Shown: positions 30,364-40,820 of the stretch, in pieces
How positions within the stretch are numbered: position 1 is the stretch's first letter
Layout: the number at the start of each line of letters is the position of its first letter
NCBI GenBank assembly: GCA_012719135.1
Contig: JAAYAW010000066.1
Span: 1 to 64,000, forward strand
Reading direction: 5' to 3'
Length of the DNA: 64,000 nucleotides
Source: Chloroflexota bacterium
GTDB taxonomy: Bacteria; Chloroflexota; Anaerolineae; UBA1429
Made by a program: the position numbers and the translations under genes
Notes under the pieces: model-generated
What the model saw: only the letters and a program-made list of their open reading frames with translations
What the model was told of the DNA's origin: nothing
Database searches by the model: none

Positions 30364-30379
30364 GTATCGCGATCCGTGC

Positions 30380-30457
30380 TTCCCTACGCTGGCATGACCC
30401 AGATCAGGTACAGGGGTCGATGGGCGGCCATCCTCTCAGCCCTTTGGGGCTCCCCCA
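30380..30457 (-). ncRNA. TPP (THI-box) riboswitch
   Basis: The minus strand shows the conserved aptamer blocks in order: the GGGGAGCCCC helix, CTGAGAGG, ACCCCTGTACCTGATCTGG and the closing GCCAGCGTAGGGAA. These match the THI element, and the downstream genes are all thiamine-related. It controls the thiN-to-DUF402 operon. Confidence 0.97.
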
Positions 30458-30477
30458 GCTCATCTTCGGTTGCCTCC

Positions 30478-32965: not shown

Positions 32966-33397
32966 TTATTCCTGCGCCAGGCCCTCCAACGCGAGGATGT
33001 AGCCGTACCATCCCAATCCGCAGATCTGTCCTCGGCAAACCGGCGCCGTGACGGACGTATGCCGGAAGGCTTCCCTCGCATGGATGTTGGAGAGATGCAC
33101 CTCAACAGCCGGCGCACTGATCGCTGCCAGTGCATCGCGCAGGGCATAGGAGTAGTGTGTGAAAGCGCCAGGGTTGATCACGATGCCATCCGCCCAGCTA
33201 TCCGCATCGTGGATCGCGTCGATCAACGCCCCCTCGTGATTCGATTGCGCGATCCGGAGGTCCACGCCGCGCTCGGAGGCCCACTGCCGGAGGCGGCCAT
33301 TGATCTCCTCCAGCGTCAGGCTTCCATAGACCCCGGGTTCACGTCGCCCCAGCATGTTCAGATTGGGGCCATGGAGCACCAGCAGGCTCTTGCTCAT
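32966..33397 (-). CDS. aroQ: Type II 3-dehydroquinate dehydratase
   Basis: 143 residues. Motifs [18 protein letters not shown] (catalytic Tyr), [23 protein letters not shown] and [14 protein letters not shown] (catalytic His) are those of AroQ. It dehydrates 3-dehydroquinate to 3-dehydroshikimate. It is the last gene of the aromatic operon and overlaps the fused aroKB gene by four bases. Confidence 0.95.
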
Positions 33398-34971
33398 GGT
33401 GTCTCTCTCCTCAGTGCAGCAATGACTTCCACCTCGGTCACATCATCCACCACAATCACCTGCCCGATCTGAGTGGGCAACACAAAGCGCAGCTGACGGC
33501 CCTGCTTTTTCTTGTCCGCTTGCATGGCTTCATATACCTCCTCCGGATCGTGAGGAGGAGGGTCCACCGGCAATCCGTGGGCGCGGAAGGCGTCCGCGAT
33601 GCGCCGTGTCGTTGCCGGAGAGGAGATGCCACGCGCTTCGGCCAGGAGCGCGGCGCGCACCGTCCCGATGCTCACGGCCAGCCCGTGGTGCAGCCCATAG
33701 CCCTCCAGCACTTCGTAGGCGTGCGCAAAAGTATGCCCCAGGTTGAGGACGGCGCGCCTTCCCCGCTCGTGGGGATCCTCCTCCACGGTGTCGATCTTGA
33801 CCTGCAGGGCGCGGGCGATCAGATCAGAAAGATCCGGCCGCGTGGCAGCGGGTTCCAGCATGGCAAAGAGCTCCGGATCGGCGATGATGCCCGCTTTGAT
33901 GATCTCGGCCATGCCCGCCCGGCTTTCGTTCTCCGGCAGGCTGTTGAGGACCGCCGGATCCAGCAACACCAGAAGGGGCTGCACAAAGGCGCCGACGAGG
34001 TTCTTGCCCTGTGGCAGGTCCACGGCAACTTTGCCGCCCACGCTCGCGTCCACCATGCCCAGCAGGCTCGTGGGGATGGCGACAAAGGGTACCCCGCGCA
34101 TATAGGTCGCCGCGGCAAAGCCAGCCATGTCGGTGATGACGCCCCCGCCAAGGCCCACGACGAAACCCGATCGACCGAGGCCGCTGGCAAAGAAGCGATC
34201 GTACAGGTGGCTCACGGTCTGCAGGGTCTTGTTCTGCTCCCCGGGCGGAAGCACGATGGTGCTGACGCGAAAGCCCCGATCCGACAGGGCTTCCTGGAGG
34301 CGGGCTCCCCAATGGGGCCAAACGTGCTCATCGCTGACGAGCGCGACCTCGCAAAGCGGATGGGCAGCGGCGAGGAGGTCGCCGGCGTAGCCCAACCCGC
34401 CCGGAATCAGATGGACCGGATAGCTACTCACAGGGGTGCGCACCAGCCAGAGCCGCGGGTTCGCCTCGGCCAGCAAGTGCACCGCTTCGACCACCTGGTC
34501 GATGGTCCGATCGGTCGTATCGATGTGATACGGGATCTCGCTATAGGCTCTCTGGCGCTGGGAAAGCAGGTCACGCACACGGACCTCTGGTGAGTCACCA
34601 TAGAGCATGGGTCTATCGCTGCTGCCCTTCAGGCGGGCGATGATCCCCTCCGGTGCGCAGTCCAGGCAGATCACGAGTCCGCTTCGCGAGAGGACCTGGC
34701 GGTTCTCTGGATTCACCAGACATCCGCCTCCAGTTGCGATGACCAGATCGGTGCGCTGGCTGAGGTCGGCACAGAGACCGCTCTCCAGGTGTCGAAAGGC
34801 ATCCTCCCCCAGTTGCGAGAATATCTCGGGTATCGTGTGTCCCGCTCGCGTGACGATCTCATCGTCCATATCGATGAACGTGCGCCCCATGCGTTCGGCC
34901 AAGCGCCGCGCGACGCTGGTCTTGCCCGTTCCCATAAAGCCGGTCAGTATCAGGTTACGCCTTCCGGTCAT
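33394..34971 (-). CDS. aroKB: Bifunctional shikimate kinase / 3-dehydroquinate synthase
   Basis: 525 residues. Residues 1 to about 165 are shikimate kinase (Walker [30 protein letters not shown]). The rest is dehydroquinate synthase ([45 protein letters not shown], the metal-binding His in NLGHTFAHA and HGLAVSIG). The two activities are steps five and two of the shikimate pathway. The fusion is in frame with no stop. It overlaps aroC by 17 bases and aroQ by 4. Confidence 0.95.
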
Positions 34972-36064
34972 GGGCTATCCTTTCCAGGATGATCTCGACT
35001 CGATCCCCCCCGTAGCGCTCGAGCAACGCATCGGCCAGCACCAGGGCAGCCATCGCTTCCGCCACCACCGCCGCAGCGGGCACGGCACAGACGTCGGAGC
35101 GCTGGTATTGCGTGGCGGCTGCCTCTCCGGTCGCTCTATCGATGGTGTCGATGGGAGTGATCGTGGTCGGGATCGGCTTCATGGCCAAGCGGATCCAGAG
35201 CGGTTCGCCATTGGTCATGCCCCCTTCCATCCCGCCGGCGCGATTGGTCTTCCGGATGCCTCCGCTGTACAGCGCATCGTGTACCCGGGTGCCGGGGGCT
35301 GAGGCATTGGCAAAGGCAGGCCCGATCTCGATCCCTTTTATCGCCTGGATGCTCATCAACGCTTGCGCCAGACGTCCGTCCAGGCGGCGATCCCATTGCA
35401 CGTGGGTGCCGAGGCCGGGCATGAGTCCCCATGCGGCCACGACGATCGTTCCACCCAACGAATCTCCAGCCTCCCGGGCAGTATCGATCGCCGCGCGCAT
35501 GGCCTGTGCCGTGGCTTCGTCCGGGCAGCCGACATCCGACAGGAGCGCCCGCCCGCAGAGCCGATCGGGAGGATCAGCCTGCTCTGGCATATGTGCCGTT
35601 CCGATGGATTCCACATAGCTCCCGATGGCGATGCCCGCGGCGCTGAGCAACTGGCGCGCCAGCGCCCCGGCCGAGACCCGTGCGGCCGTCTCACGGGCGC
35701 TCGCGCGCTCCGCCACGAGCCGCAGATCCTCGATCCCGTACTTGAGGGCGCCGGCGAGATCCGCATGTCCCGGGCGGGGGCGCGTCCACGGCGGCACCTC
35801 GCGTTCACGCCAGTTCTCATAGTCGCGGTTTGGCACCATCATGGCCACCGGCGCGCCGATCGTTCTCCCGTCGAAGACGCCTCCGAGCAGACGTACGCGA
35901 TCTGTCTCGATCTGCTGGCGGGCTCCGCGGCCGTATCCCGACTGGCGACGACGCAGTTGTTCGTCGATCGCGTTGGCATCAACCAGGAGCCCGGCCGGCA
36001 TACCCTCTAAGATGCAAACCAGAGCCGGGCCGTGCGACTCCCCGGCGGTGAACATGCGCAGCAT
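34955..36064 (-). CDS. aroC: Chorismate synthase
   Basis: 369 residues. FMN-dependent enzyme with the signatures GESHGPALVCILEGMPAG, GRGARQQIETDRV, RPGHADLAGALKYG and RASARETAARV, plus GGMEGGMTNGEP. It makes chorismate from EPSP. The ATG at 36064 has a strong SD (GGAGGAGGGG) and lies just past the aroE stop; the frame upstream is open but inside aroE. Confidence 0.95.
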   Translation of the reverse strand: MLRMFTAGESHGPALVCILEGMPAGLLVDANAIDEQLRRRQSGYGRGARQQIETDRVRLLGGVFDGRTIGAPVAMMVPNRDYENWREREVPPWTRPRPGHADLAGALKYGIEDLRLVAERASARETAARVSAGALARQLLSAAGIAIGSYVESIGTAHMPEQADPPDRLCGRALLSDVGCPDEATAQAMRAAIDTAREAGDSLGGTIVVAAWGLMPGLGTHVQWDRRLDGRLAQALMSIQAIKGIEIGPAFANASAPGTRVHDALYSGGIRKTNRAGGMEGGMTNGEPLWIRLAMKPIPTTITPIDTIDRATGEAAATQYQRSDVCAVPAAAVVAEAMAALVLADALLERYGGDRVEIILERIAHDRKA

Positions 36065-36065
36065 A

Positions 36066-36950
36066 CTACCCCTCCTCCAGGGCGTCTTGGCACGCCTCTC
36101 GCATGGCGTCCACCGGGGGTTCGGTCCCCGTCCAAAGCCGAAAGGCTTCGGCTCCCTGGTGAACGAGCATGCCGAGGCCGTTGGCGGCCCGTGCCCCACT
36201 CTGACGCGCCAGGGCCATCAGCCGGGTCTCACGGGGCGTATAGATCAGGTCGAACAACGGCACGCTCCCCGGGTAAGCTACCTCCGAGGGCCACGGGCAC
36301 TCCCCTGCCTGGGGCGACATGCCAACGATGGTCGTGTTGACGATCAGGTCGACCCGGGGCGCGCAGGCAGCCAGCGTCTCTGGCCGTAGAACGCTTGCAT
36401 CGACCTGAGGGCCGGGCAGGGCCTTTCGCAGATCACTCGCCAGAGCAGTCGCACGCTCACCGGTTCGGTTGAGAATCACCAGGCGTGTGCCCCGCGAGAG
36501 CAGTGCGTAGCCCACGGCGCGCGCAGCCCCCCCCGCACCCAGGATGAGAGCGGTGTCGGCCTCGCTCATATGGGCTTCGCTGAGGGCACGTAGAAAGCCA
36601 GAGGCGTCGGTGTTGTGCCCGCGGATCTTGTCTCCCATCAGGAGCGTATTCACGGCTCCGATGGCGCGTGCTTCAGGGCTCAGTTCGTCGACGAGATGCA
36701 CGAGGGCCTGTTTGTGCGGTACCGTAGCGTTCATGCCTCTGAGGCCGAGGGCACTGACCCCGCGCAAGGCTTCCTTGAGCCGCGCGGGAGGTACGGCAAA
36801 AGGCACATAGCACCAGTCCATCCCCAGCGCCGCGAAAGCAGCGTTGTGCATCGCTGGTGAGATCGTGTGTTCCACCGGCCAACCCAGGAGGCCGACCATC
36901 TGTGTGTGGCCTGTGACGGTCACGCTGGTTCGGATTCTGCTGACGCTCAT
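36066..36950 (-). CDS. aroE: Shikimate dehydrogenase
   Basis: 294 residues. Substrate site HTISPAMHNAAF, catalytic Lys in NATVPHKQAL and Asp in NTDASGFLRAL, then the NADP glycine loop LGAGGAARAVGYAL and NRTGERA. It reduces dehydroshikimate to shikimate. Four-base overlap with aroA upstream, one-base gap to aroC downstream. Confidence 0.94.
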   Translation of the reverse strand: MSVSRIRTSVTVTGHTQMVGLLGWPVEHTISPAMHNAAFAALGMDWCYVPFAVPPARLKEALRGVSALGLRGMNATVPHKQALVHLVDELSPEARAIGAVNTLLMGDKIRGHNTDASGFLRALSEAHMSEADTALILGAGGAARAVGYALLSRGTRLVILNRTGERATALASDLRKALPGPQVDASVLRPETLAACAPRVDLIVNTTIVGMSPQAGECPWPSEVAYPGSVPLFDLIYTPRETRLMALARQSGARAANGLGMLVHQGAEAFRLWTGTEPPVDAMREACQDALEEG

Positions 36951-38248
36951 GGACGCACCTCGGCTCCCAGAGAGGCCATGGTGCCTGCAAAGCCCGGGTA
37001 CGAATCCGCTATGCGTTCGGCGCCGAGCACGATCGTCTCGCCGTTCGCTACCAGGCCGGCCACGGCGATCGTCATCCCCAGCCGGTGGTCGTCATGGCTG
37101 TCGACGAGCGTCCCAACGAGTGGCGTGGGTCCTATTATGTCAAATCCATCCGGGGTCGGGGCGATCTCTGCTCCCAGGGCGCGCAATGCTGTCACCGTGG
37201 TGCCGATTCGATCCGTCTCTTTGACGCGCAGTTCGCGCGCATCCCGCACGTGCGTCTCACCTGTGGCCTGGGTGGCAGCGAGGGCGAGGATCGGGAACTC
37301 ATCGATCGCGCGGGGTACCACCTCGCCGCCGATGGATATGCCTTTCAGTGAGGAATGACGCACGAGCAGGTCGGCCACCGGTTCCCCGCCCTCCAGGTGC
37401 GCGTTTTCCTCTGCGATGTCCGCGCCCATCTCACGCAGCAGGTCCAGCAGTCCTGTACGCGTCCTGTTAGTGCCCACATTCTCGATCACAACCTCACTGC
37501 CGGGCACCAGGAGCGCCGCGACGCACAGGTACGCTGCAGAGGAAAAGTCCCCGGGCACGTGCACATCCAGCGGCTGTAGGCTCTGCACGGGCCCATCCAG
37601 GGTGTGAGCCAGATCTTGGCTGTGAACGGTTACTCCGCACGCCTCGAGCATCCGCTCGGTGTGATCCCGCGAAGGCCCCGGCTCTACGACCTCAGTCCTG
37701 CCCTCGGCATACAGCCCGGCCAGCAACAGACTGGACTTGACCTGTGCACTCGCCACGGGAAGAAGGTGACGCGCGCCCGCGAGCGGCGATCCTTCGATCA
37801 GCAGCGGAGGCAGGCGGTCGTCCCGAGCGCCCCTTATCCGAGCCCCCATGGCGCGCAGGGGCAGGATGACGCGATCCATGGGTCTCGCCAGCAACTGATC
37901 GTTTCCGGTGAGTTCGCTGGGAAAGCGCTGTCCGGAGAGCAGGCCGGCCATCAGGCGCATGGCCGTCCCAGAGCGCACGCAGTCCAGCGGTCTCGCGGGC
38001 GCCGACCACCCGTTGAGCCCACGCCCGCGAACCAGAATGGTGCTCTGGCCTTGGCGCTCGATATCGATGCCCAGTTCGGCCAGGCAGCCAGCCGTGGCCC
38101 GGCAATCCTCGCCGTGCAGGTATCCCTCGATGCGCGACGGCCCATCACCGAGACTGCCCAACAGGAGGGCCCGATGGGTGATCGATTTGTCCCCCGGAAC
38201 GGTGACGTGGCCAGAAAGGGAGGTCGCTCTTTTGGTCCGAAGCTGCAT
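36947..38248 (-). CDS. aroA: 3-phosphoshikimate 1-carboxyvinyltransferase (EPSP synthase)
   Basis: 433 residues. PGDKSITHRALLLGSL near the N-terminus, then LDCVRSGTAMRLMAGLLSGQ, PGDFSSAAYL, EFPILALAATQATGET and DSHDDHRLGMTIAVAGL. It joins shikimate-3-phosphate with PEP. The Gly-Thr-Ala pattern in SGTAMR resembles class I enzymes. It begins three bases after the tyrA stop. Confidence 0.95.
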   Translation of the reverse strand: MQLRTKRATSLSGHVTVPGDKSITHRALLLGSLGDGPSRIEGYLHGEDCRATAGCLAELGIDIERQGQSTILVRGRGLNGWSAPARPLDCVRSGTAMRLMAGLLSGQRFPSELTGNDQLLARPMDRVILPLRAMGARIRGARDDRLPPLLIEGSPLAGARHLLPVASAQVKSSLLLAGLYAEGRTEVVEPGPSRDHTERMLEACGVTVHSQDLAHTLDGPVQSLQPLDVHVPGDFSSAAYLCVAALLVPGSEVVIENVGTNRTRTGLLDLLREMGADIAEENAHLEGGEPVADLLVRHSSLKGISIGGEVVPRAIDEFPILALAATQATGETHVRDARELRVKETDRIGTTVTALRALGAEIAPTPDGFDIIGPTPLVGTLVDSHDDHRLGMTIAVAGLVANGETIVLGAERIADSYPGFAGTMASLGAEVRP

Positions 38249-38251
38249 CGG

Positions 38252-39109
38252 TCAGATCCTTCTGCGGCGTTCTGCAGCCGCCTCTAGCCTCTGTCGGAGT
38301 TGTGCTGCGTCATCGGCCTGGAGGGACTCGGCGAGCTCCGCCAGTTCGGTTTGCGCGAGGCGGAGCACATCCAGGATGGGCCCGCGGTTGGTGGCCAGGA
38401 TGTCCATCATCATCGGAACACTGCCTGCGGCCACCCGGCTGGTATCGCGAAAACCTCCTGCGGCCAGCGACCAGAGTATCGGGTCATCGGCGCCGACACG
38501 CTCAGCGGCGAGCACGAGGGAGGTGGCCAGCATGAACGGCAGGTGACTGATCGCGGCCACCAGCCTGTCATGTCGTGCGGGCTCCAGGTAGGTGGGCCGG
38601 GCGCCCACCGCGCGGACAAGGGTCTCCGCCAGGGATCGCGCCTCCACGGCTGTCCGGTCCAGGGGACACAGCACAAAGGCGCGATCCTGGTATAGGCCCG
38701 GCTCGGCCATGGTCAATCCGGAGCTTTCCTTGCCGCACATGGGATGGCCGCCCACCGGCTGTATGCCTGCCGGCAGGTCCGCCATCGCTGCGCAGATGGC
38801 GGCCTTTGTGCTCCCCACGTCCAGCACGAGCGCTCCAGGCTTGAGCCAGGGGCCGATTTCCCCCAGCTTCTGCAGGATATCTCCTACCGGCGTGCACAGC
38901 ACCACGATGTCGGCATCGGCCATACCGGCGCACAGATCCGTCTCTCCCCGGTGGATAAAGCGCAGCGTGAGGGCCGTGTGCAGGCTGCTCTGCCTGCGAG
39001 CGATCCCGATCACTTCGCGGCAGGCGTTTCGTGCACACAGCGCCGCTGCCAGCGATCCGCCCATCAAGCCCAGCCCAACCACGGCGACCCGAGCCTCAGA
39101 TAGCTCCAT
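38252..39109 (-). CDS. tyrA: Prephenate dehydrogenase
   Basis: 285 residues. Rossmann loop VAVVGLGLMGGSLA, then VLCTPVGDI, DVGSTKA and the substrate motif GGHPMCGKESSG, ending in the all-helical dimer domain with ISHLPFMLATSL. It oxidises prephenate (or arogenate) on the way to tyrosine. Its presence makes tyrosine the branch product made by this operon, which fits the Tyr-rich leader peptide. Confidence 0.93.
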   Translation of the reverse strand: MELSEARVAVVGLGLMGGSLAAALCARNACREVIGIARRQSSLHTALTLRFIHRGETDLCAGMADADIVVLCTPVGDILQKLGEIGPWLKPGALVLDVGSTKAAICAAMADLPAGIQPVGGHPMCGKESSGLTMAEPGLYQDRAFVLCPLDRTAVEARSLAETLVRAVGARPTYLEPARHDRLVAAISHLPFMLATSLVLAAERVGADDPILWSLAAGGFRDTSRVAAGSVPMMMDILATNRGPILDVLRLAQTELAELAESLQADDAAQLRQRLEAAAERRRRI

Positions 39110-39117
39110 AGCGGGCT

Positions 39118-40131
39118 CTACAGCGAACGGCCGACGGCCTCGGCGACGCGCCTGAGGTCCGCGATGGTTTGAGTATAGACATCCGGGGACACCGACTGGG
39201 CGCCATCTGAGAGGGCCATCTCGGGGTGAGGATGCATCTCGATGAGCAGCCCGTCGGCGCCTGCGGCGACGGACGCACGGGAGAGCGCGTTCACGTACCG
39301 TGCCCTTCCAGAGGCATGGCTGGGATCCATAAAGACCGGGAGGTGCGTCAGTTCCTTGAGGACCGGCACCGCGCTGACGTCCAACGTGTTGCGCGTGGTG
39401 GTCTCAAAGGTACGGATCCCCCGCTCACACAGGATCACCTGTTCGTTGCCGTTGGACATGATGTACTCGGCCGACATCAAGAGCTCCTCAATGGTGGACA
39501 TCATACCACGTTTAAGCATCACCGGGCGGGCAGACCGGCCGACGGCGTCCAGCAGGGCATAGTTCTGCATGTTGCGCGTGCCCACCTGGAGGATATCCGC
39601 TACGCCAGCCACCATCGGCACTTGCTCTGGCGACATGACCTCTGTGATGATCGCCAGCCCCAGCGACGACTTGATCTGGGCGAGCAACTCGAGGCCCTTA
39701 TCTCCCATGCCACGGAAGCTGTAGGGAGAAGTTCGGGGCTTGAAGGCCCCTCCTCGAAAGATCATCCCTCCGTTGGCCTTGACGATTTCCGCCGCCTCGA
39801 ACACCTGCTCCCGGCTTTCGACCGAGCAGGGGCCCCCGATGACCACAACCGGTTGATCGCCTATTCGGGCGCCGTTGACGGTGATGACCGTGTCCTCCGG
39901 GTGAAAGTCCCGGCTGGCGAGCTTGAACGGCTTGAGGACACGGACGACCCGTTCCACCCCTTCCATCAAGTCAAAGGTGGATTCATCCAACCGACGCTCA
40001 TCTCCGATGACGCCGATGATCGTGCGCTCTTCACCGGGGGAGATATGCGGCTTGAAGCCGAGTTGCGATACCCTATCAATGACGGCCGTAACCTGATCCT
40101 GCGGTGCGCCGTTTCGCATAATGATGATCAT
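39118..40131 (-). CDS. aroF: 3-deoxy-7-phosphoheptulonate synthase (DAHP synthase), type I beta with regulatory domain
   Basis: 337 residues. Residues 1 to about 75 form an N-terminal ferredoxin-like domain that binds feedback inhibitors in the Thermotoga-type enzyme. The catalytic barrel carries [35 protein letters not shown] and DPSHASGRA. It joins PEP and erythrose-4-phosphate, the first step of the pathway. It starts six bases past aroH. Confidence 0.95.
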
Positions 40132-40137
40132 GATCGC

Positions 40138-40521
40138 TTACTCCTCTGGACGCAGAGACGTGTTTACCCAATCTGGGCGAAGCGACACGGCCTCTCTCTG
40201 GTACACATGATGGACGTCGCGAGGCGGGCAATCGGTGTTCCACCATAGTAGAACGCGGACGCAGCGTCGCAGGCTGCCTGGCACCGGGATTTCGTTGCCG
40301 TTCAGCATAGGGAGCGCGGTCCATCCCAAGTCACGGGCGGCTCGGGCGGGGAAAGCCGCGTGAAGGTCCTGTGTCACGGTAAAGTAGGCCGCCGCCAGGT
40401 CGTCCACCTGAACGCCATTGGCTGATACCATCTCCTGTAGTAGCGCGCGAGTGGCCTGAAGGATCTCTTCTTCGCTGTCTGCGGCCACGGTTGTGGCCCC
40501 TCGGATGCCGCGGACGGGCAT
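40138..40521 (-). CDS. aroH: Chorismate mutase, AroH type
   Basis: 127 residues. The trimeric AroH fold is recognised by VRGIRGATTVAADSEEEIL, the VSANGVQVDDLAAAYFTVTQDL segment and ALPMLNGNEIPVPGSLRRCVRVLL. It converts chorismate to prephenate. The ATG at 40521 has SD AAAGGAG. It is the first structural gene, so readthrough of the leader terminator controls the whole operon. Confidence 0.95.
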   Translation of the reverse strand: MPVRGIRGATTVAADSEEEILQATRALLQEMVSANGVQVDDLAAAYFTVTQDLHAAFPARAARDLGWTALPMLNGNEIPVPGSLRRCVRVLLWWNTDCPPRDVHHVYQREAVSLRPDWVNTSLRPEE

Positions 40522-40546: not shown

Positions 40547-40580
40547 CAAAAAAAGCGTGGGGCTTGGCGCTCCACGCTTT
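40547..40580 (-). terminator. Attenuator-type intrinsic terminator before aroH
   Basis: On the minus strand AAAGCGTGG pairs with CCACGCTTT across an 11-nt loop, followed by a run of T (seven T in total from the 3' arm). It lies 26 bases before the aroH ATG, inside the operon leader, so it must be read through for the operon to be expressed. Confidence 0.88.
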
Positions 40581-40636
40581 GACGACCGCTTGTCTGTTGG
40601 GAAGGCTTCTATGTCTCCCGGGTGTGCAGCGCGCAA
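40564..40636 (-). promoter_or_regulatory. Candidate antiterminator pairing in the aro leader
   Basis: The segment 40624-40636 (TTGCGCGCTGCAC) can pair with 40564-40575 (GTGGAGCGCCAA), part of the terminator 5' arm and loop. This gives 11 bp with one bulge and one G-G mismatch. The two structures exclude each other. The upstream strand lies inside the last codons of the leader peptide gene. Confidence 0.6.
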
Positions 40637-40764
40637 TTCCCCGCTATGGAGAGGGGATAATAGTACAATGCACCGGCGCTGGCGGCTGCACAGCAGAGCG
40701 CTCCGGGTGTTAACCCGGTAGCCTCCAGAGGTCGTACCTTCGCCAGAGTGGCGCTGTGCTGCAT
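40609..40764 (-). CDS. Leader peptide with three consecutive Tyr codons
   Basis: A 51-codon frame with an ATG seven bases after GGGGAG. It contains TAC-TAT-TAT at 40657-40665 (residues 34-36) and stops 28 bases before the terminator. The product has no other recognisable feature. Its position between the operon promoter and the attenuator, in front of DAHP synthase, chorismate mutase and prephenate dehydrogenase, suggests a tyrosine-sensing leader peptide. It is too short to support homology. Confidence 0.6.
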   Translation of the reverse strand: MQHSATLAKVRPLEATGLTPGALCCAAASAGALYYYPLSIAGNCALHTRET

Positions 40765-40791
40765 GCGGCAACTCCCCAACAGATTGGGGAC

Positions 40792-40820
40792 ATCTTAGCA
40801 CCTCGCGATTGTAGAGTCAA
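40792..40820 (-). promoter_or_regulatory. Promoter of the aromatic amino-acid operon
   Basis: TTGACT, a 17-nt spacer and TAAGAT on the minus strand. Transcription would start near 40785, some 20 bases before the leader peptide ATG and 260 bases before aroH. Confidence 0.75.

Follow-up and report, generated by a model that had tools for sequence, protein, structure and literature searches.

The leader region and the operon in the window

The window, that is the whole stretch of 64,000 nucleotides that was analyzed, carries on its minus strand the genes aroH-aroF-tyrA-aroA-aroE-aroC-aroKB-aroQ, in this order 3' of a leader region. In profile searches the first gene of the operon, aroH (40138..40521), matched the monofunctional chorismate mutase model TIGR01796 with 138 bits (cut-off 82). 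The second, aroF (39118..40131), matched the DAHP synthase model NF006421 with 486 bits. The prephenate dehydrogenase gene tyrA (38252..39109) matched NF005107 with E=6.5e-58, which is under the cut-off of this model. Profile matches to aroA, aroE, aroC, a fused aroK-aroB and aroQ (32966..38248, minus strand) supply the remaining shikimate pathway. The operon covers the complete route to chorismate and then leads onward towards tyrosine; the searches agree with a preliminary description of this DNA, which had named aroH, aroF and tyrA as an aromatic operon. The prephenate dehydratase gene pheA of the Phe branch is located on a different contig of the same genome. AroH-PheA fusions, with both matches in one long open frame, seem to be common in the class (e.g. 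G199, G141, G045, G024). The window also contains a TPP riboswitch above the Rfam cut-off (30364-30466, minus strand).

Between 40820 and 40522 the minus strand reads, in this order, a promoter, a Shine-Dalgarno-like GGGGAG, an open reading frame of 51 codons and an intrinsic terminator, followed by the ATG of aroH. The promoter (40792..40820, minus strand) consists of a -35 element TTGACT, a 17 nt spacer and a -10 element TAAGAT preceded by TG; it is the sole promoter-like match within 1 kb, where 0.2 are expected. The GGGGAG (40772..40777, minus strand) lies 7 nt 5' of the leader ATG at 40764-40762. The predicted leader frame (40609..40764, minus strand), identified from the sequence and by comparison with relatives, encodes MQHSATLAKVRPLEATGLTPGALCCAAASAGALYYYPLSIAGNCALHTRET; its tail is GALYYYPLSIAGNCALHTRET, followed by the stop TAG at 40611-40609. 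It contains the putative regulatory codons TAC-TAT-TAT for Tyr-Tyr-Tyr (40657..40665, minus strand) 15 codons 5' of the stop. An in-frame run of three Tyr codons in a started frame of the leader region occurred in 0.05% of dinucleotide shuffles.

The terminator stem AAAGCGTGG-A-GC / GC-C-CCACGCTTT pairs 40580-40569 with 40563-40552 and is followed by a T run to 40548, which leaves 26 nt to the aroH ATG (40521). It is present in the minimum-free-energy and in the centroid fold. A simple terminator scan of the window missed this structure (40580-40548); the A.C mismatch close to the loop is the probable reason. All these parts, from the promoter to the terminator 26 nt before aroH, are located where the preliminary description had placed them.

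The region can be divided into four minus-strand segments of the kind known from attenuators. The candidate for segment 1, the protector (40668..40677), adjoins the Tyr codons on their 5' side; its limits are uncertain, and its GGUGCA is able to pair with UGCAC of segment 2. Segment 2, the putative antiterminator arm GCGCGCUGCAC (40624..40634), is located within the end of the leader frame. Segment 3, the 5' arm of the terminator AAAGCGUGGAGCGC (40567..40580), is the alternative partner of segment 2, and segment 4 is the 3' arm GCCCCACGCTTT with the T run (40548..40563), as defined by the fold. Segments 2 and 3 form 8 of 9 possible pairs between 40632-40624 (GCGCUGCAC) and 40575-40567 (GUGGAGCGC). 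A pairing of the leader end with the terminator arm had been proposed for 40624-40636 and 40564-40575, which is essentially right.

Directly 3' of the Tyr codons a small hairpin CCCC...GGGG (40639..40656, minus strand) is found, which is kept in part of the family; it occurs at the same place in L003, L004, L009 and L010. The CCCC in the 3' arm of the terminator is a possible alternative partner of its GGGG.

The energy of the antiterminator pairing in the window is unexceptional, with 28 of 100 shuffles being equally good (z -0.64). Hence the window by itself backs the idea of an attenuator only moderately, and the decisive evidence is comparative.

Leaders upstream of aroH in the class and beyond

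We searched for AroH in 298 genomes of the class to which the window belongs and obtained a match in 202 of them. The comparative set comprises 124 regions upstream of aroH, each with a length of at least 250 nt. A leader frame rich in Tyr and Phe codons was present at 115 of the 124 loci and in 35 of the 38 families of the class. At 110 of the 124 loci a started frame contained at least five Phe or Tyr residues within eight codons, compared with 1.07 expected from dinucleotide shuffles. Phe plus Tyr was the top-ranked residue pair in the leaders; the runner-up, Ala plus Leu, reached 65 loci. Conservation of the Tyr run in related leaders had been set beforehand as a test; the run is kept, together with Phe codons. 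Both synonyms are used for each residue (TTT 333, TTC 100, TAT 208, TAC 182), which argues for selection on the amino acid that is read.

The other parts of the element recur as well. A promoter of the type TTGA[CT]N-N15-18-TANNNT is located 5' of the leader at 96 of 107 loci (3.5 expected), and a terminator follows the leader with consistent spacing in 111 of 115 cases. The median distance is 14 codons from the last Phe or Tyr codon to the stop and 26 nt from the stop to the terminator. The four leaders without a called terminator (L013, L052, L063, L119) have a hairpin-and-T-like sequence by eye.

Some leaders differ in their layout. In L007, L027 and L126 the stop follows 3-4 codons past the run of Tyr codons, and the arm that would act as antiterminator is located 3' of the stop, like in E. 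coli trpL. Two loci of family f73 (L175, L182) have an aromatic leader FYFYAYL before aroH without an obvious intrinsic terminator; the control there is perhaps translational or Rho-dependent. A search of genome contigs with AroH found one distant Dehalococcoidia locus (L032), at which no leader was seen.

The element is also found in other classes. Genome G402, which is placed in the same phylum, has it, and so do relatives from families f70, f80, f106 and f109. The malate dehydrogenase of G402 has one difference from PDB 1guy/1uxg over 309 residues. The source of 1guy is Chloroflexus aurantiacus, and we take G402 to be this species. Its element comprises a leader MVGSRFYTYFFYFTSRKPDWSLRISWR, a promoter TTGACG...TATAGT and a terminator. 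In family f93 the leaders are short, centered on Tyr and followed by terminators. In families f63, f88, f99 and f101 the element is absent where aroH directly follows a trpA-like gene.

Alternative RNA structures

The pairing between segments 2 and 3 was better than that of shuffled segments 2, with a mean z of -2.06 over 103 loci. Furthermore, segment 2 preferred its own terminator arm over the arms from other loci (p<=2e-4). Taking a single locus from each of the 31 families gave the same preference (z about -5.9, with a range of -4.5 to -7.6), and a gapless count of pairs in the helix agreed (p=0.0005). Across the loci several positions of the helix are occupied by at least four standard pair types; examples are GGCUGC/GCAGCC, GGUUGC/GCAACC, CGUCUCCAC/GUGGAGACG and CGUCCCACG/CGUGGGACG. 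Among the 11 closest sequences alone the covariation was not significant because the helix hardly varies there. The folding check returned the terminator and the alternative helix as initially proposed, and over the class the antiterminator co-varies with the terminator.

Next we consider the position of the ribosome. According to an equilibrium calculation, not a kinetic one, the helix between segments 2 and 3 forms in 93% of the loci when a modelled ribosome resides on the aromatic codons. The share is 29% if the ribosome is placed at the stop and 31% without a ribosome; this contrast is partly built in, because a stalled ribosome hides the upstream partners. As a control, segment 2 was shuffled; the pairing in the stalled state then fell to 5.2 pairs, compared with 7.8 for the native sequence (p 2e-15). 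As computed, the formation of this helix would depend on where the ribosome stands.

In the median, segment 2 begins 13 nt past the last aromatic codon, with 19 nt left between its end and the stop. It had been proposed that a ribosome which reaches the stop covers this segment; it would consequently do so only in part, and a helix between segments 1 and 2 would have to do part of the work. The support for this helix is weaker: over 103 loci the mean effect is small (z -0.54), although the pairing is better than with permuted partners (p=0.0005). Within the folding model the structural results match the classical order 1-2-3-4.

Probable mechanism and signal

A leader frame rich in regulatory codons is located between the promoter and the first gene, and a terminator precedes this gene; over the class, pairing and covariation point to an antiterminator (2:3) that cannot coexist with the terminator (3:4). 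On this basis we are confident that the aroH leader is a classical 1-2-3-4 attenuator of transcription, mediated by the ribosome. The leader, its codons, the terminator, the promoter and the co-varying helix are read from sequence and comparison; we infer from them that the attenuator responds to the charging of tRNA. RNA polymerase would start at the promoter and a ribosome would enter the leader frame. With plentiful charged tRNA-Tyr the ribosome would pass TAC-TAT-TAT and reach the stop; segment 2 would then be covered or held by segment 1, the terminator would form from segments 3 and 4, and transcription would end before aroH. A lack of charged tRNA-Tyr would instead stall the ribosome on the Tyr codons, where it would cover segment 1. 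Segment 2 would be free to pair with segment 3, no terminator would form, and aroH-aroF-tyrA-aroA-aroE-aroC-aroKB-aroQ would be transcribed.

The leader in the window has Tyr codons and no Phe or Trp codon. This favors tyrosine alone as the likely signal in the species of the window, and the Tyr-only codons fit an operon that makes tyrosine while pheA is located elsewhere. The preliminary description had named tyrosine as the signal. This stands for the window; most of the relatives mix Phe and Tyr codons and about one third add Trp. Among 115 leader clusters 77 contain Phe and Tyr, 37 contain all three aromatic residues, and one, that of the window, contains Tyr alone. The family is thus likely a sensor of aromatic aminoacyl-tRNA, with the window as a nearly unique member that is narrowed to Tyr. 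Seven leaders of family f38 (L092, L079, L103, L099, L047, L057, L063) have a FSFGNFWFGYYF-type core with all three aromatic residues; they are possibly three-way sensors.

On balance, and with no great confidence, we favor an attenuator which is ancient and phylum-wide and which integrates the charging states of tRNA-Phe and tRNA-Tyr, in some lineages also that of tRNA-Trp, and in this way sets the flux into the shared shikimate pathway. The needs for Trp and for synthetases would be served by T-boxes, and the lineage of the window would have narrowed the sensor to Tyr alone. A rather unlikely explanation is that the element is a general aromatic sensor throughout: Phe, Tyr and in part Trp codons would report any shortage past chorismate, and the loss of Phe codons in the window would be drift with no change in role. 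The composition of the 115 leaders is consistent with this explanation, as is the fact that chorismate is the common product which serves all three aromatic amino acids. We also considered whether leaders have more Phe codons where the operon includes pheA. The relation was weak across loci (p=0.057) and vanished in family averages (p=0.9); this independence is again in line with a general sensor. However, in the leader of the window a ribosome could not stall on Phe or Trp codons, as there are none, and the leaders near it (L005, L027, L126, L007; several on three consecutive Tyr codons), as well as those of family f93 (L139, L183), are centered on Tyr.

An arrest of the nascent peptide by free Tyr or Phe or by an inhibitor, of the TnaC or Erm type, would give the same RNA architecture. 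We consider it very unlikely since the leaders have no fixed motif; the order and the number of Phe and Tyr residues vary freely, which fits sensing at the level of codons.

It is still less probable that a T-box or another riboswitch that binds tRNA or a ligand controls the terminator and that the frame is incidental. T-boxes are known in Chloroflexi (PMC3766115). A search of the whole genome for T-boxes gave eight candidates, three of them over the Rfam cut-off, and none at the aroH leader. The candidates (including L189-L196) precede genes which we assigned by eye as trpB, ileS, trpS, serS, trpE, valS, thrS and pheS; the one upstream of trpE is L188/L193 (C57:73145-73474). No T-box for Tyr is among these eight. 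Rfam searches of the leader region in the window at two thresholds, amino acid leaders included, and at the loci of twelve relatives gave no match, and the UGGNACC motif is absent from the leader in the window. With neither a covariance-model match nor this motif, we reject a T-box (RF00230) identity for the aroH leader; the conservation of Phe/Tyr codon runs at the amino acid level also argues against a riboswitch. The organism appears to use two kinds of sensor for tRNA charging.

That the frame encodes a functional small aromatic-rich protein, with the terminator as merely a weak insulator, is equally improbable: its aromatic core is indeed conserved at the amino acid level, but the conservation is limited to this run while the remaining peptide, the length and the start vary, and the codons past the run co-vary with the terminator arm as in an RNA element.

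The attenuator that we propose shares the alternative 1-2-3-4 hairpins, the regulatory codons and the intrinsic terminator with pheL-pheA and trpL-trp of E. coli. The latter use Phe or Trp codons and belong to gammaproteobacteria, whereas segment 2 of the Chloroflexota leaders is mostly located inside the leader frame, before the stop. For aroR, a Phe-Tyr-Phe leader before aroF in Corynebacterium glutamicum, attenuation by ribosome stalling has been reported (Neshat et al. 2014), with a response to limitation of Phe and not of Tyr according to PMC11802643; this reported lack of a Tyr response weighs against our reading. It is likewise an aromatic-codon leader peptide before a DAHP synthase operon, and it is from another phylum; we liken the two by functional logic. 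The uORFC-13-1 motif of Acholeplasma (PMC8632094) also combines a predicted upstream frame and a terminator before aroF; it differs in having Phe instead of Tyr codons, in its phylum and in being a prediction only. T-box riboswitches (RF00230), of which the genome has candidates elsewhere, resemble the proposed attenuator in that they respond to the charging of tRNA and act on a terminator; in contrast to it they bind tRNA directly without translation.

Leader-peptide attenuation was described in Proteobacteria and Actinobacteria and then, in 2010, for a His case in Firmicutes (PMC2965389). The attenuators catalogued in 2013 are those for His, Leu, Thr, Trp, Ile/Val and Phe (PMC3766115). Seliverstov et al. 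found no Phe or Tyr elements in the Actinobacteria that they examined (PMC1262725). In the open-access literature we found no account of such an attenuator in Chloroflexota, nor of a Tyr-specific attenuator.

Together, the leaders suggest that Chloroflexota probably sense a shortage of aromatic amino acids via ribosome stalling. A multi-aromatic attenuator with Tyr codons over several Chloroflexota classes would broaden both the set of amino acids and the set of lineages for this type of control. Its coexistence with T-box candidates in one genome opens the choice between two sensors of tRNA charging to study, and the presence of the element in Chloroflexus aurantiacus may make a laboratory test possible.
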